A stretch of DNA of 48,441 bases from an uncultured Bacilli bacterium (lineage in GTDB: Bacteria; Bacillota_I; Bacilli_A; RFN20; CAG-826), in assembly GCA_944368975.1 (NCBI GenBank), contig CALVXI010000010.1, positions 1-48,441 on the forward strand, read 5' to 3'. The notes under the pieces were generated by a model that ran no database searches, was not told where the DNA came from, and saw only the letters and a list, made by a program, of their open reading frames with translations. Position 1 is the stretch's first letter; each line of letters starts with the position of its first letter. Both the position numbers and the translations under genes were made by a program. Of this stretch, positions 1,517-35,347 are shown piece after piece.

Positions 1517-2671
1517 CTATTTATTATTTATTTCATCCTCATTAATAGGTTTAATATAGTTTTTCATACTTATTTGTTTAGTTTTACTAAGTAAATCAAT
1601 AAGTGATAAATGATCACTTCTAAAAGCACTAAATGCTGTATTTATTATCATTAAAATAAATGATAATAAAAAGAAATGTAGTGACGTAATTCCTAAACTC
1701 CCGATATAAAATAACGGAAAAACCAAACTAGATAAACCAAAAGTGAAAAACGAGATAATTATAACAACGAATAAGATTTCAATTAAATATAATAAATTAA
1801 TAACTAAACCTTGTTTATAATTAATCCATTTATCATTAGAAGTAATTCTTCTAGTCTTAGTAATTATTTCACCTAAGGTAACATTATATCTAACAATTAA
1901 AGAAGGAATTAATGTATATAAAATATAAATAATAATGAAAGTAATAACTAATGATGCAACACCTAAATTAGATATAAATTTATAGCTATTTAAATAAGAA
2001 TTGTAATGAGTTTGATATACTTCGTAATTTGTAAAATCGTTTAAGGCAATTTGATGAATTTCTATAAAAGAATTATAAATTTCATTAAATATATCACTAT
2101 TTATATTATTATTTAAAGAATGAGATAATTCTTCAATATACTCGCTTTTAATTAAAGGTATATCAATATTATCTCTCGTTAAGAAATATTTTTGATTAAA
2201 ATAATCAAAAAATAAATCTTGATAGTATTCTAATGGTTCCAAATTATTATAGCTTTCTAAATTAATTTTATTTTCACTTTTAAAATAAACAAAATAATAA
2301 GCTAATTCATCTTCTTTTGCTAATTCAATAGTTTCAATATCTATACTATCGTTATACTTTTTTGAATTATCTAATGTTTTATTTAACCAAATAGAAAAAT
2401 AATCTAATTCTGAAATTATTTCCTTGGTACTTCCTTCTTTTAAATAATTCAATTTTGCATCTTCTTCTAATCGATACATGTTATAAACTTCATTAAAAGT
2501 ATTCTCATTATTTTCTTTATAAGAAGGAATATTTTTTAAGATAGGAAAACAAACAAAAAGAACTATTAGTAAGTTCAAAATAAATAGGAATACCCCATTT
2601 ATTAAACTACTAACAATTCTTGATGTAATTGTTTGTTCTTGTAAACCTTTTAAGTCTTCTTTCTCCATCAT
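1517..2671 (-). CDS. RDD-like multi-pass membrane protein with a large extracytoplasmic insert
   Basis: A membrane protein of 384 aa, last gene of the sugar operon. One hydrophobic segment near residues 20-47 is followed by a ~180-residue hydrophilic, acidic region rich in Asn, Glu and Tyr, then three or more membrane segments between about 230 and 355. Near the end SDHLSLIDLLSKTKQI resembles the 'LHDLLSGT' ending of RDD proteins, and TITSRIVSSLING near the start resembles their Arg-containing first helix, but the central Asp-Asp pair is not clear, so the family is tentative. The ATG at 2671 overlaps the TGA of the ATPase gene upstream (TGATG), implying translational coupling; a TTG one codon earlier is possible. 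Its role is unknown. Being co-transcribed with an ABC importer, it may act in the membrane with it. Confidence 0.6.
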   Translation of the reverse strand: MMEKEDLKGLQEQTITSRIVSSLINGVFLFILNLLIVLFVCFPILKNIPSYKENNENTFNEVYNMYRLEEDAKLNYLKEGSTKEIISELDYFSIWLNKTLDNSKKYNDSIDIETIELAKEDELAYYFVYFKSENKINLESYNNLEPLEYYQDLFFDYFNQKYFLTRDNIDIPLIKSEYIEELSHSLNNNINSDIFNEIYNSFIEIHQIALNDFTNYEVYQTHYNSYLNSYKFISNLGVASLVITFIIIYILYTLIPSLIVRYNVTLGEIITKTRRITSNDKWINYKQGLVINLLYLIEILFVVIIISFFTFGLSSLVFPLFYIGSLGITSLHFFLLSFILMIINTAFSAFRSDHLSLIDLLSKTKQISMKNYIKPINEDEINNK

Positions 2672-4149
2672 CAATTAATAGCTTTTTTAGATATTACATC
2701 AAATAAATGAACCTTATCAAGATTAAAGTAAATATTTAATTCACTACCTTGATTAATCTTTGTATTAGCATCAAATTTAGCGATCAAATCAATATTTTGG
2801 AAGTTCATATGAACAAAATATTCGCTTCCTAAAAGTTCACTAACATTAGCGACTAAATTAAGTGTCTCACTCTTATTCTTAATATTAGTCTCTTCGAAAT
2901 TAGCACAAATGTCTTCTGGTCTAATTGCAAAAATAATACGATGTGAATTACTTAAATGAGATTCATATTCTTTAATTGTATCTTCAATTTTCTTTAATTT
3001 TTCTTCTGGTTTTTCAATTTTTATATGTTCTTTTTTCCTTTTAAATAAATTCTTTAAACTAAACTTTTCTTTATGCATAGTTAATAGAATATTCATATCA
3101 GGCTTTTCATAATCTTTATCCTCAATTTGCTTCTTTAAAATAGCAATTTGATTATTAATAAATTCTTTATAAGTATTATCAAAAGAATCTGCTAACTTAA
3201 TCTTAAAACCATCATCAAAAATTATATAATTATCGCTATAAGTAGCTTCGATTAAATTCATCGCTGGTGCTCCAATAAATGTCGCAACAAATGTATTTAC
3301 AGGATGATTATAAATTTCTTCAGGTACACCAATTTGTTGAATATAACCGTCTTTCATTACAACGATTCTACTTGCCATAGTCATAGCTTCAGTTTGATCA
3401 TGAGTAACATAAATTGTTGTAGCATTAAGTTCTTGATGCAAACGAATAATTTCACTTCTCATACTAACGCGGAGTTTAGCGTCTAAATTACTTAAAGGTT
3501 CATCCATTAAAAATACTTTTGCATCACGCACAATTGCTCGTCCTAAAGCAACTCTTTGACGTTGACCTCCACTAAGTTCTTTTGGTCTTCTAGTTAAATA
3601 ATCTTCGATTTGAAGTATTTTAGCCGCTTTATGTACGGCTTCGTCAATCTTTTCTTTCTCATAATTTCTTATTCTTAGGCCGAAAGCCATATTATCATAA
3701 ACAGTCATATGAGGATAAAGAGCATAATTTTGGAAAACCATTGAAACGTCTCTTTCTTTAGCAGTTTTTTCATTAGAGTAAACTCCATCAATAAATAAAT
3801 CACCAGTAGTAATTTCTTCTAATCCAGCAATCATTCTTAATGTAGTCGACTTTCCACAACCACTAGGACCAACTAAAACAATTAATTCATGTTTTTTAAT
3901 GTCTAAATTAAAATCAAAAACAGCTTGAATATGGTTATCGTAAACCTTATTAATATTTTTCAAAATAATATAAGAATCATTAGGAGCAATATGTTCTTCT
4001 TTTCGATGCTCTTCTTCTTTTTTTAGCATCTCTTCGTGGAGTCTTTTAAGCTCTTTTCTTTGTCTTTCAAGCTCCATTTCTTCTTCTTTTCGCTCTTTCT
4101 TTAATAACTCTTTTTCATTAAGTGTATCTTCTTTAATCTCTTTTTTCAT
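2671..4149 (-). CDS. Sugar ABC transporter ATP-binding protein (MalK/UgpC/MsmK type) with N-terminal extension and C-terminal insertion
   Basis: Energises the sugar importer encoded upstream. Visible motifs: Walker A GPSGCGKST (~94-102), Q-loop VFQNYALYPHMTV (Q140), signature LSGGQRQRVALGRAI (~192), Walker B VFLMDEPLSNLDAKLR (~212), H-loop YVTHDQTEAM (H250), and a C-terminal MalK-like regulatory domain with FAIRPEDI (~407). At 492 aa it is far longer than the usual ~365-375. About 55 residues at the N terminus are an almost uninterrupted Lys/Glu/Arg helix, likely a coiled coil, ahead of the normal start of the domain (YIILKNINKVY). A second charged insertion of ~75 residues (about 325-400) splits the regulatory domain. 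The start is supported by continuous frame use with no better internal start at the domain edge. Function is certain at family level; the sugar is unknown. It lies 5 bases after the upstream gene. Confidence 0.95.
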   Translation of the reverse strand: MKKEIKEDTLNEKELLKKERKEEEMELERQRKELKRLHEEMLKKEEEHRKEEHIAPNDSYIILKNINKVYDNHIQAVFDFNLDIKKHELIVLVGPSGCGKSTTLRMIAGLEEITTGDLFIDGVYSNEKTAKERDVSMVFQNYALYPHMTVYDNMAFGLRIRNYEKEKIDEAVHKAAKILQIEDYLTRRPKELSGGQRQRVALGRAIVRDAKVFLMDEPLSNLDAKLRVSMRSEIIRLHQELNATTIYVTHDQTEAMTMASRIVVMKDGYIQQIGVPEEIYNHPVNTFVATFIGAPAMNLIEATYSDNYIIFDDGFKIKLADSFDNTYKEFINNQIAILKKQIEDKDYEKPDMNILLTMHKEKFSLKNLFKRKKEHIKIEKPEEKLKKIEDTIKEYESHLSNSHRIIFAIRPEDICANFEETNIKNKSETLNLVANVSELLGSEYFVHMNFQNIDLIAKFDANTKINQGSELNIYFNLDKVHLFDVISKKAIN

Positions 4150-4154
4150 ATAAT

Positions 4155-6242
4155 TTACCTAAACATAAATTGTGATTGATCCAAAATATCAATACTTCCG
4201 ATATAAATACGCTTACCTTCGAAATTAATATTTATAATATCACTATCTTTTTCAAAAACATAAGGAATATATGCGTAATCATAACCATCACTTGTGCTCT
4301 TTAATGATGTATTACTAAAAACAAATGAACCGAACAAATTTCCATTTCTATTAAGTGAAGCAATAGTCGTATCTGAATAATTTTTATATTGAATTTTGAT
4401 GATAATTTCTTCATTTAATTCGACTTCTGAAGGCTTTTTAATATTTTTAGTATAAGTATTTGATGAAATTTTTAAATCTTGGTCACTAATATTATTAATG
4501 AGTTTATAATCGATTTCTTCAAGCATGAAATCATCAAAATATAACTTATCTTCATTATTGCTATCATCAGTAAATTTAAAGCCAACTTCAACATCATTAC
4601 TATTTGCCTTAAAAATAAATGTTTTGTTTATTAAATCTTCTTGGCTAGCAAAAGTGATAATTTGAACATCATCCCCAGTTCTAGCGAATAATTCAATTTC
4701 AGCATCACTAGAAGTCTTTACATAGGTTGACAATCTATAGTAACTTCCTTCATGTAAGTCACTAAATTTATGATATGCTTCACTATTTCTTGAATTAGTA
4801 AGCTCAAATCCAGCATAACCAGTATGTGAATTTGTATTAGTTCCTTCTGTGAAAACTTTTAAATCATTATTTGAATAGCTAAAACCATCAGTATTACGTT
4901 CCTCAGCATTATAATTTTTAAATAAATGAGAATGATCTTTATAAACGGTAGTGGTTGGGATTATATAATTATCTCCTTCTATTTTGCCACCATTAGCAAC
5001 TAATATTTCTTCAAAATTCTTTTGATAAAGTTTTACAATGTCATCTATTTTAATTCTTGTGAAATATACATCACTTTTAATTGAAGGAGGAAAACCACTA
5101 TCTCTATCGTTAAAGTAAACACCTTCACCATTATAATAAATTAATGAATTGAGTTTATCGTACTCTTCATTTGTTTCTTTAAAACCATTAATTACACCCA
5201 TTAATCCAGTACAAATTGCACTTGTACAATCACCATCATATCCAAACATTGAAGAATACATACATGTATCCATATAATCATTATTTCCATAAAGCCATGA
5301 CATAATTGCATAAGCTCCATTAATTGAAGGATCGGTTTGAATATTATCAATGCGATAAATTGGTTCGCGCCATAAGGCAATTTCTTTAGCAACTAGTTCA
5401 TATTCATTAGGATGCTCATTATATAACTCGATACATTTATCATAAATTTCTCTAGGTCTAGAATTTAAAGGTAATACTTCTTTAGCTTCTTCCATAATAG
5501 TTTTAACATCATCTTCAAAGTAAGCTAAGCTATACATTGTCCCATAAAATTTAGCCCAAATAATACTATCGCCATAAGCAACATTACTAGCAAATTTATC
5601 AATTAATTCATTTGCAACATTTGGCATTCCAGGAGCATTCATTCCTAAAGTCTCATTTTCTATATAACCTTCTGTGCACCATCCATAACGATTGCCACCT
5701 TCAATAGTTCCAGTAAATGGTGCTAAAAGACCATAGCGATTAATTAAATTCATCGCGTCGCTCCCACCACCCCAGTCACTTACTAAATATTTTTTCCAAG
5801 CTTCTTTAATACCATAACTTGAAGAACCAAATTCATCTAAAATTGTTTGATTAAAAATATCAATATGATAATCATCGTCACTCCAGACTTCATACATATT
5901 TGTTTCTTCATTTAACTTATGACGGTCATAAATTCCTTGGGTAGCGTAATCTCCTGGAAAATAATGATCATAATTTCCAGCGTATGGTCCATTAAGAAAT
6001 TCGAACCATTCAAGTGGCATTCCTACATGTGGGTTTGGTCCATCCCATACGAATTCATAGCCACTTAAAAACCCAGCAAATTGACCTAATAACCCTCCTA
6101 AAGTTTTATTAAAATATTCTTCTTTAGAAAGTGTTTTATTAGTGATTTCAACATCGGTAAATTTCGAATATTCACTCGCTTGATTATTACAGCCAATTAA
6201 CAATATTGCTGATAAAGGAATTAAAAATAAAGTTTTCTTCAT
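4155..6242 (-). CDS. Surface lipoprotein with an ADP-ribosylglycohydrolase-like domain and a C-terminal carbohydrate-binding-like domain
   Basis: A 695-aa lipoprotein: signal peptide with lipobox LLIGC (Cys18). Residues ~40-380 look like the all-helical ADP-ribosylglycohydrolase (DraG/ARH) fold: TLGGLLGQFAGFLSGYEF near the start, an acidic WSDDDYHIDIF (~120), GDSIIWAKFYGTMYSLAYF, and FGYDGDCTSAICTGLMGVINGF (~340), at the place of the family's GGDTDT metal-binding motif. That motif is changed here (GYDGDCT), so metal use and substrate may differ. Residues ~460-590 look like a galactose-binding beta-sandwich (AGFELTNSRNSEAYHKF ... LYFDDFMLEEI). The start ATG overlaps the TAA of the solute-binding protein gene by one base. 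In this setting it more likely acts on a glycan or N-glycoside outside the cell than on ADP-ribosylated protein; that is inference. Confidence 0.7.
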   Translation of the reverse strand: MKKTLFLIPLSAILLIGCNNQASEYSKFTDVEITNKTLSKEEYFNKTLGGLLGQFAGFLSGYEFVWDGPNPHVGMPLEWFEFLNGPYAGNYDHYFPGDYATQGIYDRHKLNEETNMYEVWSDDDYHIDIFNQTILDEFGSSSYGIKEAWKKYLVSDWGGGSDAMNLINRYGLLAPFTGTIEGGNRYGWCTEGYIENETLGMNAPGMPNVANELIDKFASNVAYGDSIIWAKFYGTMYSLAYFEDDVKTIMEEAKEVLPLNSRPREIYDKCIELYNEHPNEYELVAKEIALWREPIYRIDNIQTDPSINGAYAIMSWLYGNNDYMDTCMYSSMFGYDGDCTSAICTGLMGVINGFKETNEEYDKLNSLIYYNGEGVYFNDRDSGFPPSIKSDVYFTRIKIDDIVKLYQKNFEEILVANGGKIEGDNYIIPTTTVYKDHSHLFKNYNAEERNTDGFSYSNNDLKVFTEGTNTNSHTGYAGFELTNSRNSEAYHKFSDLHEGSYYRLSTYVKTSSDAEIELFARTGDDVQIITFASQEDLINKTFIFKANSNDVEVGFKFTDDSNNEDKLYFDDFMLEEIDYKLINNISDQDLKISSNTYTKNIKKPSEVELNEEIIIKIQYKNYSDTTIASLNRNGNLFGSFVFSNTSLKSTSDGYDYAYIPYVFEKDSDIININFEGKRIYIGSIDILDQSQFMFR

Positions 6243-7591
6243 TATAATTCACCATTTATACCTTGTCTCATTACCTCATCCATATAATCAACAAATTCAC
6301 GAGCTGTCATTTCTCCAGTAATCCAACTAGACATTCTTTGATTAATTCTTTGATCTACTGAATTATAGTAAGTTGAATATGGAACTTGGACACCAGTCTC
6401 TCTTCCACCAATAATTGTGTCTAAATATTCATGAAGTTTTCCATTATCAAGAGTATTAACATAATTTTCGACACAATCATTTCTAATTGGGAATCCACCA
6501 ACAGATTTTTTTCCTAAAGCTGTTAGAGCTTCAGCACTTTGAAGAGCCTTTAAAACAACTTTGTCTTCTTCAGCAGTACGACTATTTCTTAAGCTTACCC
6601 ATTTATCAACAAAGGTTGTTGTGTAAGATGTAAGTCCTTCTGCACCAACAGGAATTGCTGCGACACCAACATCAAAATTTGTTAATGTTGTAAAATCATG
6701 AAGTTGCCAAACACCATCAACAATCATTGCTAAATTACCACTAAGGAATCTATCGACTGCACTACTTGTAGATGTATCACTAGTTGTTGGCATTGATTTA
6801 TCGGTTTTTAATAAAGCGTCAAACCATTCATATACATCATAAAAAGCTTCTGTTTTAATAGCAAGTTCTCCATTGTCATCAAAAATATTATATCCACCAT
6901 TATTTTTTGAATACATTCCAGCATAAGCTAAATAAGGTCCCATAGAGATTCCAAACTCTCTACTTGCTCCTTCTCCACTTGATAATTTACTAGCCATATC
7001 GCGAATCTCGCTAAATGTTGAAGCATTTTCCCAATCTCCACTAGGATAAGATATTTGATCACTTGGATGAGCTAAGTTATATTCATCGAATTTATCTTTA
7101 TTATAGAAAAGTAACATATGTTGTGTTCCGGTAGGAATACCATAATATTTGCTATCACTATATGCTACACCATCAAAAGAAGCATTATTATATTCTCCGC
7201 TTTCTTTTAATTCATTTACAACATCAGTTATATCTTGAAGTTGATTGTTTTCAATCATCATAGGAACATGACTTTCTGCTATACGAATAATAGTTCCTCC
7301 AACTTGTCCTATCATATTACTAGCAACTTTAGAGTAAAAAGTATCCCATGAGTCAGTCATAATAATTTCAGTTTCAATACGAATTTTCTCACCCCATGAT
7401 TCTAACACTTTATTAGCAGCATCAATTTGAGCAAGCCATCCTGGATTTTCATTCGTACTATTCATTAATGAGACAGTTACGATAGTATTTCCTTCTTCAT
7501 CTGTTTTAGTATTATTTTTACAACTACTTAAGCCACCTAATGAGACTAAGATAGCACCTAACATTGATAAAATTTTTAAACTCTTTTTCAT
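6242..7591 (-). CDS. Extracellular sugar-binding lipoprotein of an ABC importer (family 1 solute-binding protein)
   Basis: A 449-aa protein with a lipoprotein signal peptide ending LGGLSSC (Cys24), then the two-lobed family 1 solute-binding fold: VSLMNSTNENPGWLAQIDAANKVLE at the start, TGTQHMLLFYNKDKFDEYNL (~165), DRFLSGNLAMIVDGVWQL (~285), and a C-terminal helix pair. It captures the sugar outside the cell and delivers it to the two permeases encoded just upstream. A strong AGGAGG site sits 5 bases before the ATG, the best ribosome site in the operon, as expected for the binding protein, which must be made in excess. The substrate cannot be told from sequence. Confidence 0.93.
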   Translation of the reverse strand: MKKSLKILSMLGAILVSLGGLSSCKNNTKTDEEGNTIVTVSLMNSTNENPGWLAQIDAANKVLESWGEKIRIETEIIMTDSWDTFYSKVASNMIGQVGGTIIRIAESHVPMMIENNQLQDITDVVNELKESGEYNNASFDGVAYSDSKYYGIPTGTQHMLLFYNKDKFDEYNLAHPSDQISYPSGDWENASTFSEIRDMASKLSSGEGASREFGISMGPYLAYAGMYSKNNGGYNIFDDNGELAIKTEAFYDVYEWFDALLKTDKSMPTTSDTSTSSAVDRFLSGNLAMIVDGVWQLHDFTTLTNFDVGVAAIPVGAEGLTSYTTTFVDKWVSLRNSRTAEEDKVVLKALQSAEALTALGKKSVGGFPIRNDCVENYVNTLDNGKLHEYLDTIIGGRETGVQVPYSTYYNSVDQRINQRMSSWITGEMTAREFVDYMDEVMRQGINGEL

Positions 7592-7614: not shown

Positions 7615-8469
7615 TTATTTGATTCCAGTTGTAGCAATGCCTTGAACGAAATATTTTTGGCATTTTAAATAAACAATAGCAATAGGAATAATTGATAATG
7701 TACTAGCAGCCATTATTCTTCCCCATTCAATTCCAGTCATATGTGTTTCTTTTAATCCAGCAATGAGTAAAGGAAGAGTAATTAATTCTTGATCGGTAAG
7801 ATAAATTAATTGACCAAAATAATTATTCCAACTACCAATGAATGTAAATAAACCTAAAGTGACAAGTGATGGTTTTAATAAAGGTAATATTATTTGGAAA
7901 TATTTTCTAAAATATCCACAGCCATCCACTTCAGCTGCTTCTAAAAGTTCATTTGGAATAGAAACAATGAAACTTCTAAGCATAAATACACCATAAGTAT
8001 TAATCATGACTCCTGGGATAATTAACGGCAAGAAAGTGTTAATCCAACCTATGTTAGCAAAGATAACAAATAAAGGCAAAATTGTTACTTGCCCAGGAAT
8101 CATTAAGCATGCAATAAATAATGAATAAATTGCATTTTTTCCTTTAAATTTTAATTTTGCAAAAGCAAACGCTGCTAAGCTACTTGTAAATAAAGTACCA
8201 AATGTAGAGGTTGTGGCGATAATAATTGAATTAAGATACGCTCTCCAAATCAAACCATCACCATAAGTAAATACAGCCATATAGCTATCAAATGTTAAAT
8301 CGAAAGTAAATATATCGACTGGTACCTTAAATATATCTAAAGGTTGTTTAAATGAATTTAAAATCATCCAATAGAATGGGAACAAACAGCCAATAGCAAA
8401 AACCATTAAAATAAGAGTTATAATCGTAATTTTGATTATATTTTTTTGTTTTCTTCTTAAGGATCTCAT
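7615..8469 (-). CDS. Carbohydrate ABC transporter permease (MalG/AraQ type)
   Basis: A 284-aa inner-membrane permease with six hydrophobic segments. The ATPase-contacting EAA loop reads ELLEAAEVDGCGYFRKYFQI followed by ILPLLKP (about residues 180-205), typical of the MalG side of CUT1 sugar importers. The protein ends with a short tail (QGIATTGIK), common in this family (QGLTAGAVK). Its ATG overlaps the TAA/TGA end of the preceding permease gene by 4 bases, so the two are made together and pair as a heterodimer. The short interval to the binding-protein gene holds that gene's ribosome site. Confidence 0.95.
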   Translation of the reverse strand: MRSLRRKQKNIIKITIITLILMVFAIGCLFPFYWMILNSFKQPLDIFKVPVDIFTFDLTFDSYMAVFTYGDGLIWRAYLNSIIIATTSTFGTLFTSSLAAFAFAKLKFKGKNAIYSLFIACLMIPGQVTILPLFVIFANIGWINTFLPLIIPGVMINTYGVFMLRSFIVSIPNELLEAAEVDGCGYFRKYFQIILPLLKPSLVTLGLFTFIGSWNNYFGQLIYLTDQELITLPLLIAGLKETHMTGIEWGRIMAASTLSIIPIAIVYLKCQKYFVQGIATTGIK

Positions 8470-9350
8470 TCGTAAACTAGCCTCTTTTTAACTTTAAATT
8501 GAATTAGTGTTACAACACCAACTAAAGCAAATAATACCCAACTAGCAACGGCAGCTCTGCCCATATCAAATTCAGTAAATGCATAGAAATAAATATACAT
8601 TGATAAGGTGTAAGTTGAATAATTTGGTCCACCAGCGGTCATAATATAAACTTCATTGAACATATTGAAGACATCAATAAATAACATGACGCTAACAAAG
8701 AACATAACGCTACTTAACATTGGTAAAGTAATATTTTTTATTTTTGTAAAAGCGTTTGCTCCATCAATTTCAGCTGCTTCATATAATTCGGTTGGAATAT
8801 TTTTTAATCCAGCATCGAAAATAATGTAATAATAACCAATTTTTAACCAAATCATTACTATTGAAACAGCAAATCTAGCCCAAAATTCATCCTGTAGCCA
8901 ATGTGGTGGATTACTAATCCCAATGCCTTCTAAAATTGTATTTAAAACTCCACCATATGGTTGATAAATAAATAGCCAAACCATTGAGATAGCTACAGTT
9001 GAAGTAACCATTGGTAAGAAGAAAGCTGCGCGGTAGAATTTCATAAATGGTAATTTACGATTCGTTAATAAGGCTAAAATTAAGCTAGTAAGTAATGTTA
9101 ATGGGACAACAATACATATATAAATTAATGTATTACCCATCGATTTCCAAAAGATTGGATCTCTAAAAACTGCTGCAAAATTTTCGCCACCTACATAAAC
9201 AGGTAAATCAATGAAATTCCAATAAGAGAAGCAAAGATAAATCGAGAAGAATAATGGGAATGCTACAAAACAAAGAAAACCAATAAGTTGTGGTCCTATA
9301 AATATGTAGGAAAAGATGTTTTCTTTTTTCTGTCGTCTTGACATTTTCAT
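8466..9350 (-). CDS. Carbohydrate ABC transporter permease (MalF/UgpA type)
   Basis: A 294-aa permease, partner of the next gene. Six membrane segments are visible, from FSYIFIGPQLIGFLCFVAFP (~13) to VASWVLFALVGVVTLIQF near the end. The EAA loop is ELYEAAEIDGANAFTKIKNI with TLPMLSS after it (about residues 188-212). The N-terminal KENIFSYIFIGPQLIGF is characteristic of UgpA/LacF-like CUT1 permeases. Both ends overlap the neighbours by 4 bases (ATGA), so the hydrolase-like enzyme and the two permeases form a translationally coupled block. Confidence 0.95.
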   Translation of the reverse strand: MKMSRRQKKENIFSYIFIGPQLIGFLCFVAFPLFFSIYLCFSYWNFIDLPVYVGGENFAAVFRDPIFWKSMGNTLIYICIVVPLTLLTSLILALLTNRKLPFMKFYRAAFFLPMVTSTVAISMVWLFIYQPYGGVLNTILEGIGISNPPHWLQDEFWARFAVSIVMIWLKIGYYYIIFDAGLKNIPTELYEAAEIDGANAFTKIKNITLPMLSSVMFFVSVMLFIDVFNMFNEVYIMTAGGPNYSTYTLSMYIYFYAFTEFDMGRAAVASWVLFALVGVVTLIQFKVKKRLVYE

Positions 9351-10960
9351 CTTAAGTACCTTCTATAATATTCCTTAGCCTGTTCAACAATTTCTAAAAC
9401 TTTATCAAGAGCATTATCAATCGAGCCATCCACTAGGCTTAAAGTAGGAATAATTCCTTCTCTTAATGGAGTCATTCGATCACTATTAATGCCTAATTCA
9501 TGAACGCCGCTAGACCCATAACTAGGATCCCCAATACATAAATGAGCAAATTCACGTACATACCTTGTAAAAAGTAAAGGACTTACACGATCATGATAAT
9601 GAAGTTTTCCATCTGTATGTCCTGATTGGAATAATGGCATACATTTAGCAAGTCCGTCATAAAATCCTTCCCCACTAATTAAGAAATCATCTTTAATTGT
9701 ATGAAGCCTATTTGCAAATTCGCACACACCTTCATAAATATCATGGTTTAAATCATTAACCCAATAAGCGGCGATATCTAAGAAACATCCATCAAAATCA
9801 TATTTTAACGTATTGTGTTTAATTTGATTAAATAAATAATCTTGCCATAACTTAGATCCTATATTTAAGTTTCCTAATTTTGCAAAATCATAGTGATGGG
9901 CTCCTTCCCAATCCACCGACCCATTATGAAATTTTGCGCCGCTTATAGATTGGCATTCTGATTTGCTATATAAAGCACTAATTTCTGGTTGATCAATATT
10001 TGCAATATTAATCCCATACATTGCTATACAATGGCATCCTAAATTATGAATACCATTTACAAGTTTAATAAGTTCTTCTTCGCCACCTAAACGACTATCA
10101 GCTGAATAATCACCATACTTATAATAGTATCTACCTTCCCAGCCAGCTAAATAAATTAATATATGTTTACCATCGATATATTCGCATAATTTTTTAACAT
10201 CTTCCAAGGCACTTTTATAAGTATGAAAGATTTTACCAGTAAAGTGTTCCATATGCATAGTGACAACTAATGATATATCTTTAAACCAATTAGGAACATC
10301 TTTTCGTTCTGAAAAGTCTTCTAAACTAAACTTTTTTTTCAAAAAATCAGAATATTTTTTATAAACATCTTCTAAGTTATTCTCTATAGTGACTTCTAAG
10401 TGTGCAGTTTCAATTTCTTTTGATAAATCAACTCCGCGGCTTTCAAAAACATAATCTAATCGAAGTAAACCACCTTCATTTCTAAGATAATATCTTTTTT
10501 CTCTTACTAAGTAATCATCATCTTTAATAACTAAATATTTACTATTTTCTAATTTAAATATAAGTAATGGTTGTGATAAACTTCTCCATCCTTCTGGATA
10601 ACGATACAACTCACCAAATTCAGTTATCTTTTTATCTTCACTTGATAAAGTAATTAAATCACCTAAGGGTAAATTATTAAAAGCAATTTTTAAGCATCTT
10701 ATATCTTTATCTAATGATGCTTTTGCTTTTATAGAATAACCATTTTGAATATCATGAACTTCTAAAGAAATATTTCCTTCAACATTTTCAGTTTCTCCAA
10801 AAACGATTTGATTAGACTCATATAAATTTCCATGTTTTATCAAACTTTTTTCTTTTGGATAATAAATATTTTCAAGCGAAAATAATTCTAGATGTACTTT
10901 ATAATCACCAAGATTAATATAATCAGTTTTTACCTTATAGCTTAAATCTTGGAGTTGCAT
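9347..10960 (-). CDS. Cytoplasmic glycoside-hydrolase-like enzyme (beta-sandwich plus TIM barrel, possibly GH101/GH129-like)
   Basis: A 537-aa protein without a signal peptide, so probably cytoplasmic. Residues 1-220 look like a beta-sandwich. From ~222 (VPNWFKDISLVVTMHMEHF) the pattern is a TIM barrel: HILIYLAGWEGRYY (~266), CIAMYGINIA (~311), FDGCFLDIAAYWVNDLNHD (~389) and FLISGEGFYDGL (~426). D395 at the end of a strand and E431 36 residues later resemble the nucleophile and acid/base spacing of alpha-N-acetylgalactosaminidases of families GH101/GH129; that is my comparison from memory, not a search. Cytoplasmic location next to an ABC importer suggests it cleaves the imported sugar. Its ATG begins just after the upstream stop, with no clear Shine-Dalgarno, and its end overlaps the permease start by 4 bases. 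The family assignment is tentative; enzyme of glycan breakdown is likely. Confidence 0.6.
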   Translation of the reverse strand: MQLQDLSYKVKTDYINLGDYKVHLELFSLENIYYPKEKSLIKHGNLYESNQIVFGETENVEGNISLEVHDIQNGYSIKAKASLDKDIRCLKIAFNNLPLGDLITLSSEDKKITEFGELYRYPEGWRSLSQPLLIFKLENSKYLVIKDDDYLVREKRYYLRNEGGLLRLDYVFESRGVDLSKEIETAHLEVTIENNLEDVYKKYSDFLKKKFSLEDFSERKDVPNWFKDISLVVTMHMEHFTGKIFHTYKSALEDVKKLCEYIDGKHILIYLAGWEGRYYYKYGDYSADSRLGGEEELIKLVNGIHNLGCHCIAMYGINIANIDQPEISALYSKSECQSISGAKFHNGSVDWEGAHHYDFAKLGNLNIGSKLWQDYLFNQIKHNTLKYDFDGCFLDIAAYWVNDLNHDIYEGVCEFANRLHTIKDDFLISGEGFYDGLAKCMPLFQSGHTDGKLHYHDRVSPLLFTRYVREFAHLCIGDPSYGSSGVHELGINSDRMTPLREGIIPTLSLVDGSIDNALDKVLEIVEQAKEYYRRYLR

Positions 10961-10962
10961 AA

Positions 10963-12267
10963 TTATTCAATATCCTCAATGTAAGTTAAATTTGCATAAT
11001 CTAATTGGAAGAAACCACTATCAACAGTTACTCCGTTTTCTTCTAAGCCAGTTAATAATATACAATAAATATAGTTATCTCCCTCTTCTAGAGTAATTTC
11101 TAATTGTTGATCAGTAAGTGTAAATACTCCCCAATTTGATGTATATTCAAGCCCTTCAAACGTTTGAATTTCATATCCATCAACAATTAATTGCATACTT
11201 CTAGCTGGTGAAATAGCTTCTTGAGTAACGATAATACTTGGTGCTGGTAATTTACTTCCATCAAATTGCCCAGAACTATATGCTACATCAATTGTATATT
11301 TAGCTTTAGTTTCAGAATTAAAATGCCATTCAACTCCATCAAAACACTTTTCAATTCCACCTAAACAGAATTTATTTGAATAAGAATCATTAACAATAGC
11401 TGGATTTTTTACAGTTCCATCTTTTCTTGGTGAACCCATTTCAGCTTCTAAAATATATGTTGTAGGATGATCGCCATATTTAATTAAATTATCAACATTA
11501 TAAGTTGATTTATCTCCATGTAAAACAAAATAGTCTAACTCAGCATAACTACCGTAATTGTTGCTGGCATCACCATTTTTGAAAATAGAAATAGTGTTCC
11601 ATCCTTCAACTAAAGTAATTTCAACTTCAGCCTTTGCAGGTTCATAAGTAGCTCCACCCCAACCAGTTTTTTCTGTAAAGTGAAATGTTGTTTGATACTC
11701 ACCATTAATCCAAACTTCATTTTGTGCTGGTTCTTGGTCAGTTGTATAATAACAATCAAATTTAAATGTTCCTGCTTTTGGTGATAAATAATTTATATAT
11801 ACACCTTGACCAGCATCATCAATGCCACCAACATATGCACCATTACTTGCCTGTGGATTATTTCTAAAATTCGATTGTTCTTTACCTGTTCCAAAATTAT
11901 ATAAGTAATTTTCTGCTTCAAAAGTAACATCGCCAAATTCTGTTAATACATCAAAACTATAAGTTGCTACTTCGCTTTCAATATCTTGATAATAAGCTGA
12001 AACTTCAAAAGTAATTGTTCCTTCTAATCCGATACTTGATACATCAATTGTTGTATCTTCAATTTGGTCTTCATAAATCACTACTTCTAAATGAGTAAAT
12101 GAGATATTATAACCTTCAGCATTTGCAACTTCATTAAAAGTTATTATTCCGTCACTATAAGTAATATTCGTGACCTTATCTAAACTAGTAATTTTAACAG
12201 TGTCGTCTTGACAAGCAGTAATAGACATAAGTCCTATTACACCTAAAATAAGTATACTTTTTTTCAT
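10963..12267 (-). CDS. Surface lipoprotein with a fibronectin-like domain and two CBM6/CBM35-like carbohydrate-binding modules
   Basis: A 434-aa lipoprotein: signal peptide with lipobox SITAC (Cys19). Residues ~25-108 form a short beta domain of fibronectin/Ig type (VTNITYSDGIITFNEVANA). Residues ~114-250 begin FEAENYLYN and end YAELDYFVLHG, the pattern of CBM6/CBM35 modules (an AE near the first strand, final LDY). Residues ~270-430 repeat it (YILEAEMGS ... FFQLDYANLTYI). No catalytic domain is seen. It should hold an extracellular glycan at the cell surface for the importer downstream. AGGAGG lies six bases before the ATG. A gap of two bases separates it from the hydrolase-like gene. Confidence 0.8.
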   Translation of the reverse strand: MKKSILILGVIGLMSITACQDDTVKITSLDKVTNITYSDGIITFNEVANAEGYNISFTHLEVVIYEDQIEDTTIDVSSIGLEGTITFEVSAYYQDIESEVATYSFDVLTEFGDVTFEAENYLYNFGTGKEQSNFRNNPQASNGAYVGGIDDAGQGVYINYLSPKAGTFKFDCYYTTDQEPAQNEVWINGEYQTTFHFTEKTGWGGATYEPAKAEVEITLVEGWNTISIFKNGDASNNYGSYAELDYFVLHGDKSTYNVDNLIKYGDHPTTYILEAEMGSPRKDGTVKNPAIVNDSYSNKFCLGGIEKCFDGVEWHFNSETKAKYTIDVAYSSGQFDGSKLPAPSIIVTQEAISPARSMQLIVDGYEIQTFEGLEYTSNWGVFTLTDQQLEITLEEGDNYIYCILLTGLEENGVTVDSGFFQLDYANLTYIEDIE

Positions 12268-12273
12268 AGATTA

Positions 12274-12279
12274 CCTCCT
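12274..12279 (-). promoter_or_regulatory. Strong ribosome binding site of the carbohydrate-binding lipoprotein
   Basis: AGGAGG on the minus strand, six bases before the ATG at 12267, filling most of the 16-base gap after the lacI-type gene. It fixes the start of the lipoprotein and should make its yield much greater than that of the regulator. Confidence 0.85.
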
Positions 12280-12283
12280 AAAA

Positions 12284-13228
12284 TTATGATTCCCCAAAGT
12301 ATATTCTTGTTGGAAATAATTTAATTTTTGTTTCCTTATTTCCATTAATTCCCTCAATTAATGTGTCAATTGCAAATTCAACCATTTCTTGATAATCGCT
12401 TTCTACGGATGTAATATCAAAAGCGGTTTCACTATATCTACTACTTCCATTAAAACCTACTACTGATATATTATTAACTCTTCCTTTTAAACAAACTTTC
12501 ACGGCTAATATATCATCAAAGCAAAAGAAAGCATCGTAATCATTGGTCAATAAATTTGGTAGGATATTTTCGATGTCTTCTCCTTCGATGTATGTTTTTT
12601 CTGCTGGTCCTAATTTCGATAGCATATCAAAAAATCCGTTTTTTCTTCTTTCACTACATTCAATATTCTTATTACCAATATAACAAAACTTCCCAGTATG
12701 ACTTGTTTTGTACAAATATTTAGCAGCTAAGGTTCCACCAGTATAATCGTCTGTACAAACTACATTTAAACCGTCTTCGTTTAAATATCTTCCAAATAAT
12801 AAAATAGGAATTTTATTAAGATTTGCAAATTCTAATGCCTCTTTCGTTGGAATTAAAAATGTTAAGATAGCATCTAACCTAAGCTTTAAACATTCTTTTA
12901 TATCATCTTTATAAGCTTCCATTTTGTTTGTAGGAATAATTAGCGTTGTGTAATTTCTTTCCTTACAATAATTAATAATATTTTCAATGATAAAAGAAAA
13001 ATATGGGCTACACAATGAATCAACAATTATGCCGATTACATTAGTTTTGCCAGTGCGCAAACTGCTTGCCATAAAATTAGGTTGATAACCTATTTCAATT
13101 GCTTTCTTCCTTACTTTTTGTTTAGTTTTCTCACTAATATCACTGCAGTCTCTTAAAGCGCGGCTAACCGCTGTAATAGATAAATTAAGCTCCAAAGCTA
13201 TTTGTTTTAAGCCAACTTCATTTTTCAT
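12284..13228 (-). CDS. LacI-family transcriptional regulator, first gene of the sugar operon
   Basis: A 314-aa repressor-type protein. The N-terminal helix-turn-helix reads VGLKQIALELNLSITAVSRALRD (residues ~5-27) and is followed by the hinge region IGYQPNFMASSLRTGKT (~47-63). The sugar-sensing domain of periplasmic-binding-protein type starts at NVIGIIVDSLCSPYF and contains DGLNVVCTDDYTGGTLAAKYL (~152). It should control the operon it heads, releasing the operator when a sugar ligand binds. No Shine-Dalgarno is clear before the ATG. The gap of 16 bases to the next gene argues for co-transcription and thus autoregulation. Confidence 0.93.
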   Translation of the reverse strand: MKNEVGLKQIALELNLSITAVSRALRDCSDISEKTKQKVRKKAIEIGYQPNFMASSLRTGKTNVIGIIVDSLCSPYFSFIIENIINYCKERNYTTLIIPTNKMEAYKDDIKECLKLRLDAILTFLIPTKEALEFANLNKIPILLFGRYLNEDGLNVVCTDDYTGGTLAAKYLYKTSHTGKFCYIGNKNIECSERRKNGFFDMLSKLGPAEKTYIEGEDIENILPNLLTNDYDAFFCFDDILAVKVCLKGRVNNISVVGFNGSSRYSETAFDITSVESDYQEMVEFAIDTLIEGINGNKETKIKLFPTRIYFGES

Positions 13229-13565
13229 ATCTTGATAAAATATTAAATAGAAAAATAAAGCTAGTAAATATTTAGTTTATCGTTAAAGTAAGATTTCAAA
13301 GTAAAAAAATTACGATAGAATCGAAACTTTTCAAATGCAATATTTTGCATAAATTTATTTTTAAAGTTAACGATTAATTAAAATTTTTAGATATATTTCA
13401 ATATTTTTGATGATTCTATTGAAATCTAACTTAATTAGAAAAAATTAAAAATAAATACTCGACTTAAAAACTACTTTAAAACTACTAAATATATACTTAT
13501 ATAGGTCTTAAATAATAAAATTTAAAAAAATAGTAAGGTTTTGAAGGCTTTTAAGTAAAAATTGT
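13229..13565 (-). promoter_or_regulatory. Promoter/operator region of the sugar operon (337 bases without a gene)
   Basis: No ORF. Two copies of one 8-base sequence stand in opposite orientation: ATCGTTAA at 13279-13286 and TTAACGAT at 13367-13374, each with a central CG as in LacI-family operators. Between them lies a dyad ATGCAA-tatt-TTGCAT at 13335-13350. Any of these could bind the regulator encoded at 12284-13228, and two spaced sites would suit looping. Promoter boxes are ambiguous in this A+T-rich DNA and I do not assign them. Near 13528-13556 the DNA also has a short direct repeat (AAGGTTTTGAAGGCTTTT). The end of the next lipoprotein gene enters at 13566. Confidence 0.35.
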
Positions 13566-14924
13566 TTAAACATGATAAACCCAAGTAGTAACAAAATCTT
13601 CTAATAATTTAAAACTTGAATTATTGAAATTAGTAAATTCAAAACTTAATTCATAAGTATATTGATTATTCACTTGTAAATATAAACAAAAAGTAACTTC
13701 GCATAATTCATCACTTGCTGCTAAGTTATAACTAAATGAATTGCCAAGTAAAGTAATAACATCTGTTTCTTCAAAATAATCACTTACATAAAATTTATCA
13801 TATAAGTCATAAGATAAATCAAAGTTAGTCGTAAAATAAACTTGATATTCCTCATCAAAATAATATTTTTGAAAATTACTAAAAGTCAATAAATTAGTTG
13901 GATATCTAGCTGCAGTTATAATATCGGTAGTTTCATCATTAATCGGTCTAGTATATAAAGGACTAAAAACATAATCACTTATCGAAGTATCATACATTAA
14001 AAATCCCATATAAATTCCATTTTGACTAATCGTTGCGCTTTGTCCACTTTCATCATCAATTAAGGTTAAAGTTTCATTATCAGCTTTATAAAAAGCATTA
14101 TTATAAGCGTTACCTTCAGGGTAAACATTATAATCGTAAACTGTTACATAATAATTAGGAGTAAATATTTCTTCTCCTATTTTTATCTCATTATTATTTT
14201 CATCATAACCATATATATTATGAGTATAATTTGAATTAGAGAATAATTCTCTAATTCTTATAAAATCATCGCTTGGAGTATAATAAGTTCCACCATTATT
14301 TAAATATTCATTAACATTACTTAAAGAAGTCGTTCCAACATTATTAAGTTCAGCAATAATTGTTGATTCATCTTCTCCATCAGTTAAAGTCATATCAAAA
14401 ACAAATGAATTTAAGTCATTTTCGCCATAAATTAATCTAAAAGATGTTACATCAAATATTTTATTAACATCTTCTCCTACCAATTCTAAAAATGCTCTTC
14501 GATCATTATTAGAATTTATATTAATAATTTTTGATGATGTATCAAGATTTTGAAAAGTAAAATCACTAAAAGTTGTAACTAATTCATTACCATATATATT
14601 AGTTACATTTTGAAGAACTTCTCCTGAAATAATTTCATTTTCTTCAAGACTAAAAGGATAAACTTGATTACTTGTATTTTTAATATATCCTAAATTATCA
14701 TAGCTTGAATAATAAGCAGTATCTGAATATTCTTTTATAAATTCTTCGCCATTAATGCGATAATTTAAAGTAAAGTTATTAATAGAACGTAACTTCATTA
14801 ATCCTTCTTGAATATTATTAAATGTTGAATTAATTGTTGTTTCTTCATTTTTATCTCTACAACTAGTAATTAGTCCTAAAGGCAATATTGTTAATAATAA
14901 AAATTTGTCTAAATGAGTTCTCAT
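13566..14924 (-). CDS. Large unrecognised surface lipoprotein
   Basis: A 452-aa protein starting at the ATG at 14924, chosen because AGAGGAT lies seven bases before it and because the product then begins with a clean lipoprotein signal (MRTHLDKFLLLTILPLGLITSC, Cys22). Starting 16 codons further upstream would put a charged stretch ahead of it. The mature protein is Asn, Ser, Thr and Tyr rich, acidic, without further membrane segments, and reads as beta-rich, probably extracellular. I recognise no family. It has its own upstream region and is separated by 337 bases from the sugar operon, so it may be an independent unit. No terminator with a good stem was found after it. Confidence 0.75.
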   Translation of the reverse strand: MRTHLDKFLLLTILPLGLITSCRDKNEETTINSTFNNIQEGLMKLRSINNFTLNYRINGEEFIKEYSDTAYYSSYDNLGYIKNTSNQVYPFSLEENEIISGEVLQNVTNIYGNELVTTFSDFTFQNLDTSSKIININSNNDRRAFLELVGEDVNKIFDVTSFRLIYGENDLNSFVFDMTLTDGEDESTIIAELNNVGTTSLSNVNEYLNNGGTYYTPSDDFIRIRELFSNSNYTHNIYGYDENNNEIKIGEEIFTPNYYVTVYDYNVYPEGNAYNNAFYKADNETLTLIDDESGQSATISQNGIYMGFLMYDTSISDYVFSPLYTRPINDETTDIITAARYPTNLLTFSNFQKYYFDEEYQVYFTTNFDLSYDLYDKFYVSDYFEETDVITLLGNSFSYNLAASDELCEVTFCLYLQVNNQYTYELSFEFTNFNNSSFKLLEDFVTTWVYHV

Positions 14925-14930
14925 AAATAA

Positions 14931-14937
14931 ATCCTCT
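14931..14937 (-). promoter_or_regulatory. Ribosome binding site that fixes the start of the large lipoprotein
   Basis: AGAGGAT on the minus strand, six to seven bases before the ATG at 14924. It supports that start over the in-frame ATG at 14972. Confidence 0.8.
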
Positions 14938-15189
14938 AGGTATAATTTTAAATGAGAGATAGTTTTTTGCAATTAAATATTATTTTTCATAATAAAATTT
15001 AAATTTATTCGATTGCATCGATAAAAAATTAATATTTTATATATTAATTTTAAGTAAATATAAATATACTAATTGAATTTAGATTTAATTTTAATAATTT
15101 ACTTCGAAAACCTCTTAAATCTCAATTATTTTTATAGATATAAATATAAAATCATTGAGAATTATTACTTAAATAATTAAAATTAATTT
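14938..15189. other. A+T-rich intergenic region between divergent genes
   Basis: About 250 bases separate the minus-strand lipoprotein from the plus-strand membrane gene, so promoters for both must lie here. A short dyad TCGAT-tgc-ATCGA occupies 15009-15021, and an A/T-only inverted repeat AATTAATAT/ATATTAATT lies near 15028-15050. No convincing promoter box pair is seen. Confidence 0.3.
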
Positions 15190-21028: not shown

Positions 21029-22375
21029 TTATATATTAATATTTATAAAATAATCATAATCTTCATCATGTTTTATAAACTCAGCCATATAAATAGGTAG
21101 ATAAGTTATATTATCTTTAACTTCTAAATTATTAGTTGATAAAACATAAGGTGTATTAAGATATTTTTTATATTCAGAAGCTAATAATTTATTTAATGAA
21201 CTATGTTTTTTATAATCACTTCCACTTTTTACTTCAATAGGAATAATCTTATTATCTTTTTCAACGAGAAAATCTATCTCACCAATATTTTTATTTCGAT
21301 AATAATAAACATCAAAACCATTAGCTTTTAATGTTGAAGCAACAAAAGATTCAAATAATCCACCTAAATTTAATAAATGATCTGCATTTTTTTCAAATAA
21401 AGCTTGTTTAATCATTATTGAATAATAACTATTAAGTAATCCGACATCATTCATAAAAAATTTAAAACTATTTCTTTCTTTAGATATTAACAATGGAGGT
21501 CTAACTTCGGTTACATTAAATATAAGATAGGCAACACCTGCATCTTTTAACCATAAGAAAGAATTTTCATAACGATCAAACTTTAGTTCTTTATTTAAAT
21601 ATTTAAAAACAAATTTAAGATTTTGTTTATTTAATTGTGCAGGAATATTATCGAATATCTCAATAATTCTTAATTTTCTATCTTCATTTTCATATTTAGA
21701 AAAATCGCTTTTATATAGATTTACAATATTCTTTTGAGTTTCATGTATTGCGGTTAAATTACTAGAATTAAAAAATGTATTAATAACATCAGGTAATCCA
21801 CCAGTAACTAAATATGTATAAAATAAATCTATCATCTTATTATGAGTTAGTTCATCGACTTTTGTTTTATTATTAAAACATTCTCTTAAATAATTTTTAG
21901 TTTCATCATTAACTCCACATGCTTTAATAAATTCAAATAGACTCATTGGATACATTTTTAATTCTTTTAAATATCCAACAGGCATTGATCTAATATTTTT
22001 AATTTCAACTCCAAGCAATGAACCACTTAAGATATATTTAAAGCTTCCTTCATCCACTAAAAATTTAATCTTAGTGATAATATCTAGATATTCTTGAACT
22101 TCATCTAAGAAAATTACACTTTCTTTTTCTTTTAAAATTTCTTTTGAATTTCTTTTAAATATACCAATTATTTCTTTAACAGTATCTGCTTTATTTAATG
22201 CTTCTTTGATGTTTTGATTAAGAATAAAATTTACTTCAAAAAAAGGAACACCAAGATTTTTTAAACTTTCTCTTATAACGTAAGTTTTTCCAACTTGTCT
22301 AGCACCACTTATTAATAGAGCCTTATTATCATTTTTAAACCACTTTATAATTTTACTTTCAATTTCTCTTTTCAT
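21029..22375 (-). CDS. AAA+ ATPase with DUF4143 domain (AAA_14 family), intact
   Basis: A 448-aa protein of the family found in many copies in bacteria and archaea. N-terminal ATPase: Walker A SGARQVGKT (~23-31), Walker B VIFLDEVQEY (D91, E92), sensor region YILSGSLLGVEIKNI (~134). DUF4143 follows, with AYLIFNV (~280) and SFKFFMNDVGLLNSYYS. The end is a PD-(D/E)XK nuclease-like core: GEIDFLV (D368) and IIPIEVKSG (E381, K383), complete. The biological role of the family is not settled; proposals include toxin-antitoxin-like and defence functions. Members often show presence/absence variation, as the neighbouring remnants suggest. No clear Shine-Dalgarno before the ATG. Cytoplasmic. Confidence 0.93.
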   Translation of the reverse strand: MKREIESKIIKWFKNDNKALLISGARQVGKTYVIRESLKNLGVPFFEVNFILNQNIKEALNKADTVKEIIGIFKRNSKEILKEKESVIFLDEVQEYLDIITKIKFLVDEGSFKYILSGSLLGVEIKNIRSMPVGYLKELKMYPMSLFEFIKACGVNDETKNYLRECFNNKTKVDELTHNKMIDLFYTYLVTGGLPDVINTFFNSSNLTAIHETQKNIVNLYKSDFSKYENEDRKLRIIEIFDNIPAQLNKQNLKFVFKYLNKELKFDRYENSFLWLKDAGVAYLIFNVTEVRPPLLISKERNSFKFFMNDVGLLNSYYSIMIKQALFEKNADHLLNLGGLFESFVASTLKANGFDVYYYRNKNIGEIDFLVEKDNKIIPIEVKSGSDYKKHSSLNKLLASEYKKYLNTPYVLSTNNLEVKDNITYLPIYMAEFIKHDEDYDYFININI

Positions 22376-22438
22376 ATTAAGATTATAATAAATAGGAAAC
22401 TATAATTCAATACTTTGCCCCGTTATTTTAAGAAAAAG

Positions 22439-22453
22439 GGGGCAAAATGCCCC
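22439..22453. terminator. Bidirectional intrinsic terminator with an alternative upstream pairing
   Basis: GGGGCA-aaa-TGCCCC is followed on the plus strand by ACTTTTTT and on the minus strand by CTTTTTCTT. On the minus strand it stands 25 bases after the stop of a CAT-gene remnant, whose terminator it probably was, and it may now end transcription of the ATPase gene at 22688-23965. TTTGCCCC at 22414-22421 can pair with GGGGCAAA at 22439-22446 instead, excluding the terminator stem. Confidence 0.75.
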
Positions 22454-22477
22454 ACTTTTTTAATAAAAAGTATTAAA

Positions 22478-22536
22478 TCACTTTAAATAATTTTCAATAT
22501 CATTTAGTATTTCAATAATTTTATTAAATCCATCAG
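22478..22536 (-). pseudogene. 3'-end remnant of a CAT-family acetyltransferase gene
   Basis: On the minus strand this reads ADGFNKIIEILNDIENYLK and a TGA (22480-22478). The intact CAT-like protein at 24158-24829 ends AEGFNKVIDKLANINDYLIKFI, so about 19 codons are clearly homologous. Nothing of the rest of the gene is present; the similarity stops where a GNAT remnant on the other strand begins. A hairpin terminator follows the stop. Confidence 0.75.
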
Positions 22537-22644
22537 CAATTTCTATATCGAAAATTAGGATATATAGATTGTGGCAGATTAAGTTTAGAAAATACTCCTT
22601 ATTAACAACCTTTAGAACTTTTTATGAAGAAAAAAATCGATTAA
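22537..22644 (+). pseudogene. 3'-end remnant of a GNAT acetyltransferase gene
   Basis: The frame reads QFLYRKLGYIDCGRLSLENT then PY-stop-QPLELFMKKKID and TAA. The intact gene at 19661-20080 has QFLYRKLGYIDCGGLFLENT then PYDQPLELFMKKNLA, so ~35 codons align. An internal TAA (22603-22605) replaces a GAC. The copy is cut at its 5' side exactly beside the CAT remnant. It differs at many third positions, so it is an old paralogue, not a recent duplication. Confidence 0.85.
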
Positions 22645-22687
22645 ATAATTAAAAACATGCAAAACTTCACTTGATTTTGAGAGTTAT

Positions 22688-24010: not shown

Positions 24011-24177
24011 GTTTTACAATAAACATTTTTAGCCACTTTCAAATATATAAAAATATATACTTTGCAATAAATATTAATATAGATTTTAAATATAAAAAAA
24101 TATATAGCTTTAAATACAAATTTTTATATACTTTCAAATAAATATTTTTACCTATTTTCAAATAAATTTTATTAAAT
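24011..24177. repeat. Degenerate ~24-bp tandem repeat array, about seven units
   Basis: Units begin near 24011, 24035, 24059, 24083, 24108, 24130 and 24154, with a loose consensus ACTTTCAAATAAATATTTTT plus a 4-base tail such as ACCT. Most are 24 bases, one about 22 and one 25. The last unit enters the 3' end of the CAT-like gene and supplies its last codons and TGA (24158-24160). The units are diverged, so the array is old. Confidence 0.75.
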
Positions 24178-35255: not shown

Positions 35256-35300
35256 AATTTAACCTCATCTTTTTAAATACAAATTCCTTAAGTCTTTAAT

Positions 35301-35306
35301 ATTATA
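35301..35306 (-). promoter_or_regulatory. Candidate internal -10 box in the polysaccharide cluster
   Basis: TATAAT on the minus strand in the 92-base gap between an EpsG-like gene and the glycosyltransferase, 45 bases before the ATG. The -35 side is weak (TTTTAT at 17 bases). This is one of the few gaps in the cluster. Confidence 0.35.
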
Positions 35307-35347
35307 ATTTTTTCATTCCCTTAATAAAATAACAACTTAGTCAATTT

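Follow-up and report, generated by a model that had tools for sequence, protein, structure and literature searches.

An exported ADP-ribosylglycohydrolase-fold lipoprotein in a sugar ABC operon, probably an unrecognised kind of sugar-cleaving enzyme

Many bacterial genes are named 'ADP-ribosylglycohydrolase' from the Pfam model PF03747. A gene matching this model lies in a stretch of 48,441 nucleotides from an uncultured, gut-type Bacilli bacterium (contig CALVXI010000010.1; the whole stretch is referred to as the window), where it encodes an exported lipoprotein and is surrounded by sugar-transport genes. This raises the question of what a protein with the fold of the ADP-ribosylhydrolases (ARH) does outside the cell and next to a sugar importer. 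The analysis suggests that it probably cleaves sugars, as an enzyme of a kind not yet recognised. We consider it fairly likely to be a metal-dependent glycosidase of the cell surface, perhaps a furanosidase, which feeds oligosaccharide to an ABC importer.

The reading frame occupies positions 4155..6242 of the minus strand, begins with ATG and encodes 695 amino acids. Its N-terminus, read by eye, is short, basic and hydrophobic, and the signal peptide (6189..6242, minus strand) ends in the lipobox L-I-G-C at residues 15-18, in line with the export claimed in an earlier note on this DNA. Hydrophobic N-terminal segments are likewise seen in the relatives: by eye, seven of thirteen aligned members, the window's included, have a lipobox-type Cys, and the remainder have other export-type N-termini. 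Pfam places PF03747 (ADP_ribosyl_GH) on residues 171-356 (E = 6e-10; 39.7 bits, the cut-off being 26.2), which is the sole PF03747 match in the protein's own genome, and CBM_4_9 on residues 439-557 (E = 8e-5, slightly below the cut-off in this protein). Over the thirteen aligned members, PF03747 is matched in all thirteen (E <= 0.001) and CBM_4_9 in eleven. PHROGs and NCBIfam yielded no useful family for the protein, and searching PDB sequences with the single protein yielded a chance match only.

An AlphaFold model built from 13 sequences (mean pLDDT 88.0, pTM 0.91) presents a helical domain at about residues 38-416 followed by two beta-sandwiches, at about 436-578 and 580-688. The model, with its all-helical ARH domain (4995..6131, minus strand), was structurally aligned (VIA) with ARH3 6hh3, giving Z = 27.7 and an rmsd of 3.0 A over 297 residues. 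The structural aligner also matched DraG 2woc (Z = 25.2, rmsd 3.1, 279 aligned) and ARH1 6g2a (Z = 23.5, rmsd 3.7, 303 aligned), and every chain in the first 30 rows is an ARH-fold member of the ADP-ribosylglycohydrolase family; these lists re-score Foldseek's ranking, and the absence of a family from them carries no meaning. With the full model, Foldseek itself places beta-sandwich proteins at the top, because the two small domains fill the list. The protein belongs to the ARH fold superfamily, as the earlier note had proposed, and the match to ARH3 excludes a structure that is not ARH-like.

The first beta-sandwich (residues 436-578; 4509..4937, minus strand) is CBM4/9-like according to Pfam, a PDB profile search and structural alignment, with matches to 8hhv (Z = 17.4, rmsd 2.2, 148 aligned), the porphyran-binding 8xmz (Z = 16.9, rmsd 1.7, 132 aligned) and 2xom, a CBM61 (Z = 16.2, rmsd 2.6, 137 aligned). 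The second (residues about 580-688; 4179..4505, minus strand) is delimited by profile and model and is CBM35/CBM6-like by profile: the family profile run against PDB sequences matched CBM35-type chains, e.g., 2w3j (E = 1.6e-5). By this similarity, both are labelled carbohydrate-binding-like. The earlier note had described one added domain of this kind; its sugar-binding-like character stands, and the model raises the count to two.

The active site was studied in an alignment that combined the 14 family members with three exported sisters (from Flammeovirga, Parabacteroides and genome G040), 14 further proteins of Asp-x-Asp-Cys type and 15 canonical ARH sequences, with unnamed rows sampled from the profile-search matches. 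The 14-member count excludes L026 and L027, whose contigs were taken, from their equal lengths, to be those of L022 and L017, and L003, which equals L015. Loci L036, L040, L041, L060, L062, L064-L066, L068, L069, L073, L075-L080 and L082 were left unaligned owing to a reassigned code, a wrong reading frame or no motif found, fragmentation, or repetition of an included locus. Row L074 lacks its N-terminal part, which accounts for the one gap in several canonical counts. ARH3 numbers were assigned to columns by motif position, as the alignment has no human ARH3 row.

The columns of ARH3 E41, D77, D78, D314 and D316 correspond to E63, D123, D124, D336 and D338 in all 14 members. Two of the motifs involved are S-D-D-D (residues 121-124; 5871..5882, minus strand) and GYDGDCT (residues 334-340; 5223..5243, minus strand). 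The Ser/Thr column before the Asp pair, which we take to be that of ARH3 T76, holds D122 in 14/14 members and S or T in the 14/14 canonical rows reaching it. At the T317 column, C339 is present in 14/14 members, T or S in 15/15 canonical rows, C in 14/14 of the other, non-sister Asp-x-Asp-Cys group, and N, C and S in the three exported sisters. Given the other Cys-type group has it too, Asp-x-Asp-Cys is a division-wide trait. Hence, of the changed metal motif claimed previously, the difference in the Thr/Ser ligands holds, whereas both Asp are kept and the motif is not peculiar to this protein. Thirteen ARH domains from at least two phyla share 79 invariant columns, with all five acids among them, and these five ligands, placed by alignment column, would allow the ARH domain to bind a dinuclear metal. 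According to PMC5727137, D314, T317 and E41 of ARH3 hold Mg, and the D314 and T317 mutants (T317A for the latter) are inactive. Since T317 mutants are inactive, Cys in this column is a real question mark over catalysis: the reaction may be weak, may depend on a different metal, or may not occur.

The ADP-ribose pocket differs further. For ARH3, PMC5727137 describes S148, Y149 and H182 as essential residues that bind adenine or phosphate. The H182 column is His in 15/15 canonical and 14/14 other Cys-type proteins, N or D in the three exported sisters, and G, T or A in 14/14 members of the window's family, with His in none of the 14. At the MR of the GNGxMR loop, 14/15 canonical rows have R or K, and all 14 members have E; E191 and E195 occupy the ADP-ribose-recognition columns in 14/14 members. 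The replacement of these residues in every member speaks, at the level of sequence, against a pocket built for ADP-ribose, which would have counted against the proposal of the earlier note. By alignment, the protein lacks two defining features of ADP-ribosylhydrolases proper, the Ser/Thr ligands and the GNGxMR loop with His182.

Searching genome contigs with the family profile yielded twelve loci (L013-L024), hosted by Clostridia, Bacilli, Paenibacillus and actinobacteria (Leifsonia, Catellatospora). A further locus, L008, is on a plasmid of Cnuibacter physcomitrellae, and there are 14 distinct family members including the window's. Both C. physcomitrellae and Paenibacillus sp. 598K, which has the operon as well, are in culture. 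Single-protein searches of genome contigs and viral contigs found no match, nor did an alignment-based search of viral contigs find an ARH-family locus. Near the home genome the distribution is patchy: among 59 relatives, full-length matches are present in the window's genome (G000) and G040 only, and the 25 genomes of the same genus (G001-G025) have none. In the larger phylum sample described below, the same-family genomes G077 and G266 each have one. A match in G049 was read as a helicase-type reading frame and judged a chance hit. The ARH-family genes of L064-L066, L068, L069, G092 and G274, which all belong to a single family within the phylum sample, contain in-frame TGA codons, as would be the case if TGA encodes Trp in that family.

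A tree of 45 ARH domains, with L074 left out, separates the canonical proteins from all others with support of 100/100, and the window's family forms a single group (100/100). The closest row outside it is Flammeovirga (97/95), followed by Parabacteroides and the second protein of G040 (90/93). From the other Asp-x-Asp-Cys group, thirteen rows form a separate, weakly supported group (83/74) and, by eye and where the start was read, have no export signal. Given these rows group apart from the window's branch, export seems, from few rows, to be concentrated in one branch of the Cys-type division. PF03747 is hence composed of a canonical half and a large, well supported Asp-x-Asp-Cys half.

The surrounding genes, all on the minus strand, bear out the sugar operon context described previously. 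They encode a LacI-family regulator (12284..13228, by profiles); a CBM35-like lipoprotein (10963..12267, by profiles and tblastn), with a homologous domain that four relatives carry as part of the ARH protein; a DUF6259 protein (9347..10960, by profiles and model); ABC permeases of UgpA/MalF type (8466..9350) and UgpE/MalG type (7615..8469), both by profiles; a sugar ABC solute-binding lipoprotein (6242..7591, by Pfam); and, beyond the ARH gene, an ABC ATPase of UgpC/MalK type (2671..4149, by profiles), which is the probable importer motor. The gene of an RDD-family membrane protein (1517..2674, by Pfam) overlaps the ATPase gene, and its link to the system is unproven. Elsewhere in the window are two adjacent AAA_14/DUF4143 ATPase genes of the same family (21029-23965), a gene matching the chloramphenicol acetyltransferase family (24158-24829), and glycosyltransferase and EpsG-family genes that are part of a likely surface-polysaccharide cluster (33936-36496).

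When the window's operon proteins were compared by tblastn with the 13 other loci (L008, L013-L024), the ARH gene was found in 13/13, and the DUF6259 gene and both permeases in the same 12/13. In the exception, L015, the contig starts 17 bases before the ARH gene, such that the upstream side is missing. The solute-binding protein is matched in 11/13 loci (absent from L015 and L024), LacI in 6/13, a full-length ATPase adjoining the operon in 4/13, and a separate upstream CBM35-like lipoprotein gene in 5/13, while four loci (L008, L018, L023, L024) have the homologous CBM35-like domain within the ARH reading frame. Among 392 genomes sampled from the phylum, strong matches to the ARH profile (E below 1e-180) and to the DUF6259 profile (E below 1e-250) are confined to one and the same trio, G000, G077 and G266; the latter two seem to share their contigs with L022 and L017 and are thus not independent of the twelve-locus search. 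The remaining matches are far weaker (ARH E >= 5.5e-29, DUF6259 E >= 6.6e-8). In L022, a large reading frame that is Cas9-like by eye (11118-15152) lies past the ARH operon, which there adjoins a CRISPR-type locus.

No signal peptide is apparent by eye in the partner, the DUF6259 protein. Modelled with a pLDDT of 86.7, the protein aligns with GH129 8rzk (Z = 24.9, rmsd 4.2, 466 of 537 residues), 5wzp (Z = 24.7, rmsd 3.7, 461 aligned) and the galactosaminidase 8x1b (Z = 21.1, rmsd 4.5, 471 aligned), of which we take 5wzp to be GH129-type and 8x1b to be GH36-type; GH13 enzymes are matched as well. The model contains the catalytic barrel with N-terminal beta-sandwich of GH129/GH101/GH36. Pfam returns DUF6259 together with weak GHL6 and GH66, and the profile search matched a neopullulanase around its barrel Asp and Glu. 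D395 and E431, invariant in 12/12 proteins, fit these residues and by analogy would suit a nucleophile and an acid. The protein is read, from its model, as a putative cytoplasmic retaining alpha-glycosidase.

Clues to the bond come from sisters and neighbours. In Flammeovirga, Parabacteroides and Spirosoma (in the last, the ARH gene is an unannotated match outside the tree), the exported sister adjoins a ribokinase and a GRP sugar transporter, with a nucleoside hydrolase also adjacent in Parabacteroides, and in G055 a cytoplasmic Cys-type relative adjoins a ribokinase homologue and a BPD_transp_2 permease. In L004 (445-3610), a cytoplasmic Asp-x-Asp-Cys ARH protein is flanked by a ribokinase homologue and a BPD_transp_2 permease, which may form a pathway for nucleoside or riboside use. 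Within the window's family, 0/12 loci (L015 left out) match these ribokinases, transporters or nucleoside hydrolase. Ten chosen neighbours were scanned, and these include GH127, a beta-L-arabinofuranosidase family, in L019 and L021, GH36 in L019, GH38 in L018, GH2 and UxuA in L014, and a sulfatase in L017. On a Deinococcus aetherius plasmid (L091, 5575-13697), LacI, a solute-binding protein, two permeases, DUF6259 and GH127 form one run with no ARH match; GH127 occupies the place that the ARH gene has in Cnuibacter. A neighbour of the Hymenobacter DUF6259 gene is weakly similar and GH127-like. Together, the ribokinase-adjacent sisters and the GH127 neighbours make a furanoside plausible, with the sugar not fixed.

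The genome itself has no match to ribokinase (control positive in 14/14 genomes), AraA or GH127, and in it an aldose epimerase gene adjoins a galactokinase-like gene (E = 3.8e-34, below the curated cut-off). Without ribokinase or AraA matches, ribose or arabinose is an unlikely end product in this genome, and this makes the parallel with the Bacteroidota sisters weaker. Given these absences, that of GH127, and the epimerase and galactokinase-like genes, galactose (perhaps released from galactofuranose) is put forward as a candidate for the end product, the weakest step of the proposal.

The proposed pathway would then run as follows. Within a glycan-uptake operon, the ARH protein would serve as a lipoprotein enzyme at the cell surface, its fold being inherited from ARH. 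Its two C-terminal carbohydrate-binding-like domains would keep it on the glycan, and it would cleave a glycosidic bond with a dinuclear metal site (E63, D123, D124, D336 and D338, with D122 and C339 in place of Ser/Thr). ARH1, ARH3 and DraG cleave at ribofuranosyl C1, and since characterised ARH enzymes do so, the bond would most likely be a furanoside; as a counterpoint, the partner DUF6259 resembles pyranoside-acting families. The freed oligosaccharide would be caught by the solute-binding lipoprotein and imported by the MalFGK-type transporter, and the GH129/GH101/GH36-like alpha-glycosidase DUF6259 would complete its breakdown in the cell, with galactose as a possible final sugar. We tentatively entertain a more specific possibility, in which the family founds a novel type of secreted glycoside hydrolase, a furanosidase of ARH fold with a dinuclear metal site that acts on extracellular polysaccharide (e.g., galactofuranose- or arabinofuranose-containing) and is exchanged for or joined by GH127 in related operons.

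Three other explanations were weighed. PF03747 membership, the ARH fold and the retained acidic metal ligands would also fit an exported ADP-ribosylhydrolase, or an ADP-ribose or NAD scavenger, that strips ADP-ribose from extracellular targets. This is very unlikely, however: the GNGxMR loop and the His182 column, which ARH3 needs for ADP-ribose according to PMC5727137, are replaced in 14/14 members; the protein has carbohydrate-binding-like domains, lies in a sugar ABC operon and is accompanied by a glycosidase-like partner; and its genome is without a ribokinase match. The last point, together with the two carbohydrate-binding-like domains, the GH129-like partner and the lack of ribose-type gene matches in all 12 loci considered, also argues against a lipoprotein with ribosidase or nucleosidase activity, which would release ribose from nucleosides or from ribosylated compounds. 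Such a role is suggested by the ribokinase and GRP transporter genes of the three Bacteroidota sisters, by the nucleoside hydrolase in Parabacteroides, and by the cytoplasmic Cys-type relative next to ribokinase and BPD_transp_2; for the window's protein, we consider it improbable.

The remaining explanation is a lipoprotein that binds glycan without catalysis, its ARH domain being an inactive scaffold. Neither of the Ser/Thr metal ligands is retained, T317A of ARH3 is inactive according to PMC5727137, and the other lipoproteins of the operon are binding proteins. Nevertheless, invariance of 79 columns, all five acids included, across 13 domains of at least two phyla is unexpected in a dead domain, and the Cys replacement is common to the wider Cys-type division; we doubt this explanation. 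Hence, a surface glycosidase is the preferred reading. By its sequences and gene neighbourhoods, an exported branch of the Asp-x-Asp-Cys half has dropped ADP-ribose recognition and is found in glycan-uptake operons. If the proposed activity is borne out, a large set of misannotated genes would become a source of carbohydrate enzymes with a metal mechanism unlike that of classical two-carboxylate glycosidases. If it is a furanosidase, the Asp/Cys site would add an independent, metal-based chemistry to glycoside cleavage, and the entire Asp-x-Asp-Cys half of the 'ADP-ribosylglycohydrolase' family would have to be re-annotated.

In a literature search with most subscription journals outside its scope, nothing was found on an exported carbohydrate-active ARH, an ARH furanosidase or DUF6259. 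To our knowledge, no CAZy family has the ARH fold. In comparison with the alpha-(N-acetyl)galactosaminidases and alpha-galactosidases of GH129/GH101/GH36, DUF6259 matches the fold over its whole length (Z about 20-25, with 461-473 of 537 residues aligned in the GH129-type entries), yet it differs in having a sequence identity of 9-13%, in being cytoplasmic, and in being DUF6259 in Pfam. GH127, a furanosidase family, takes the ARH gene's place beside DUF6259 in Deinococcus, although it is a protein family unrelated to ARH and has no match in the window's genome. The lipoprotein ARH proteins of Bacteroidota (Flammeovirga, Parabacteroides) are the nearest branches of the tree and, as in the window's family, are exported, have the Asp-x-Asp motif and have lost H182; their operon, however, differs, with no DUF6259 seen, and Pfam detects no CBM in these two. 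A gene of this Bacteroidota type is reportedly part of the ribose-utilisation locus of Bacteroides thetaiotaomicron, in the work of Glowacki et al. of 2020. Finally, the window's protein shares with ARH3, ARH1 and DraG (PF03747) the all-alpha fold and the E41, D77, D78, D314 and D316 columns. Unlike them, it is an exported lipoprotein with two beta-sandwiches in a sugar operon, has D122 and C339 for the Ser/Thr ligands, and has lost GNGxMR and H182.
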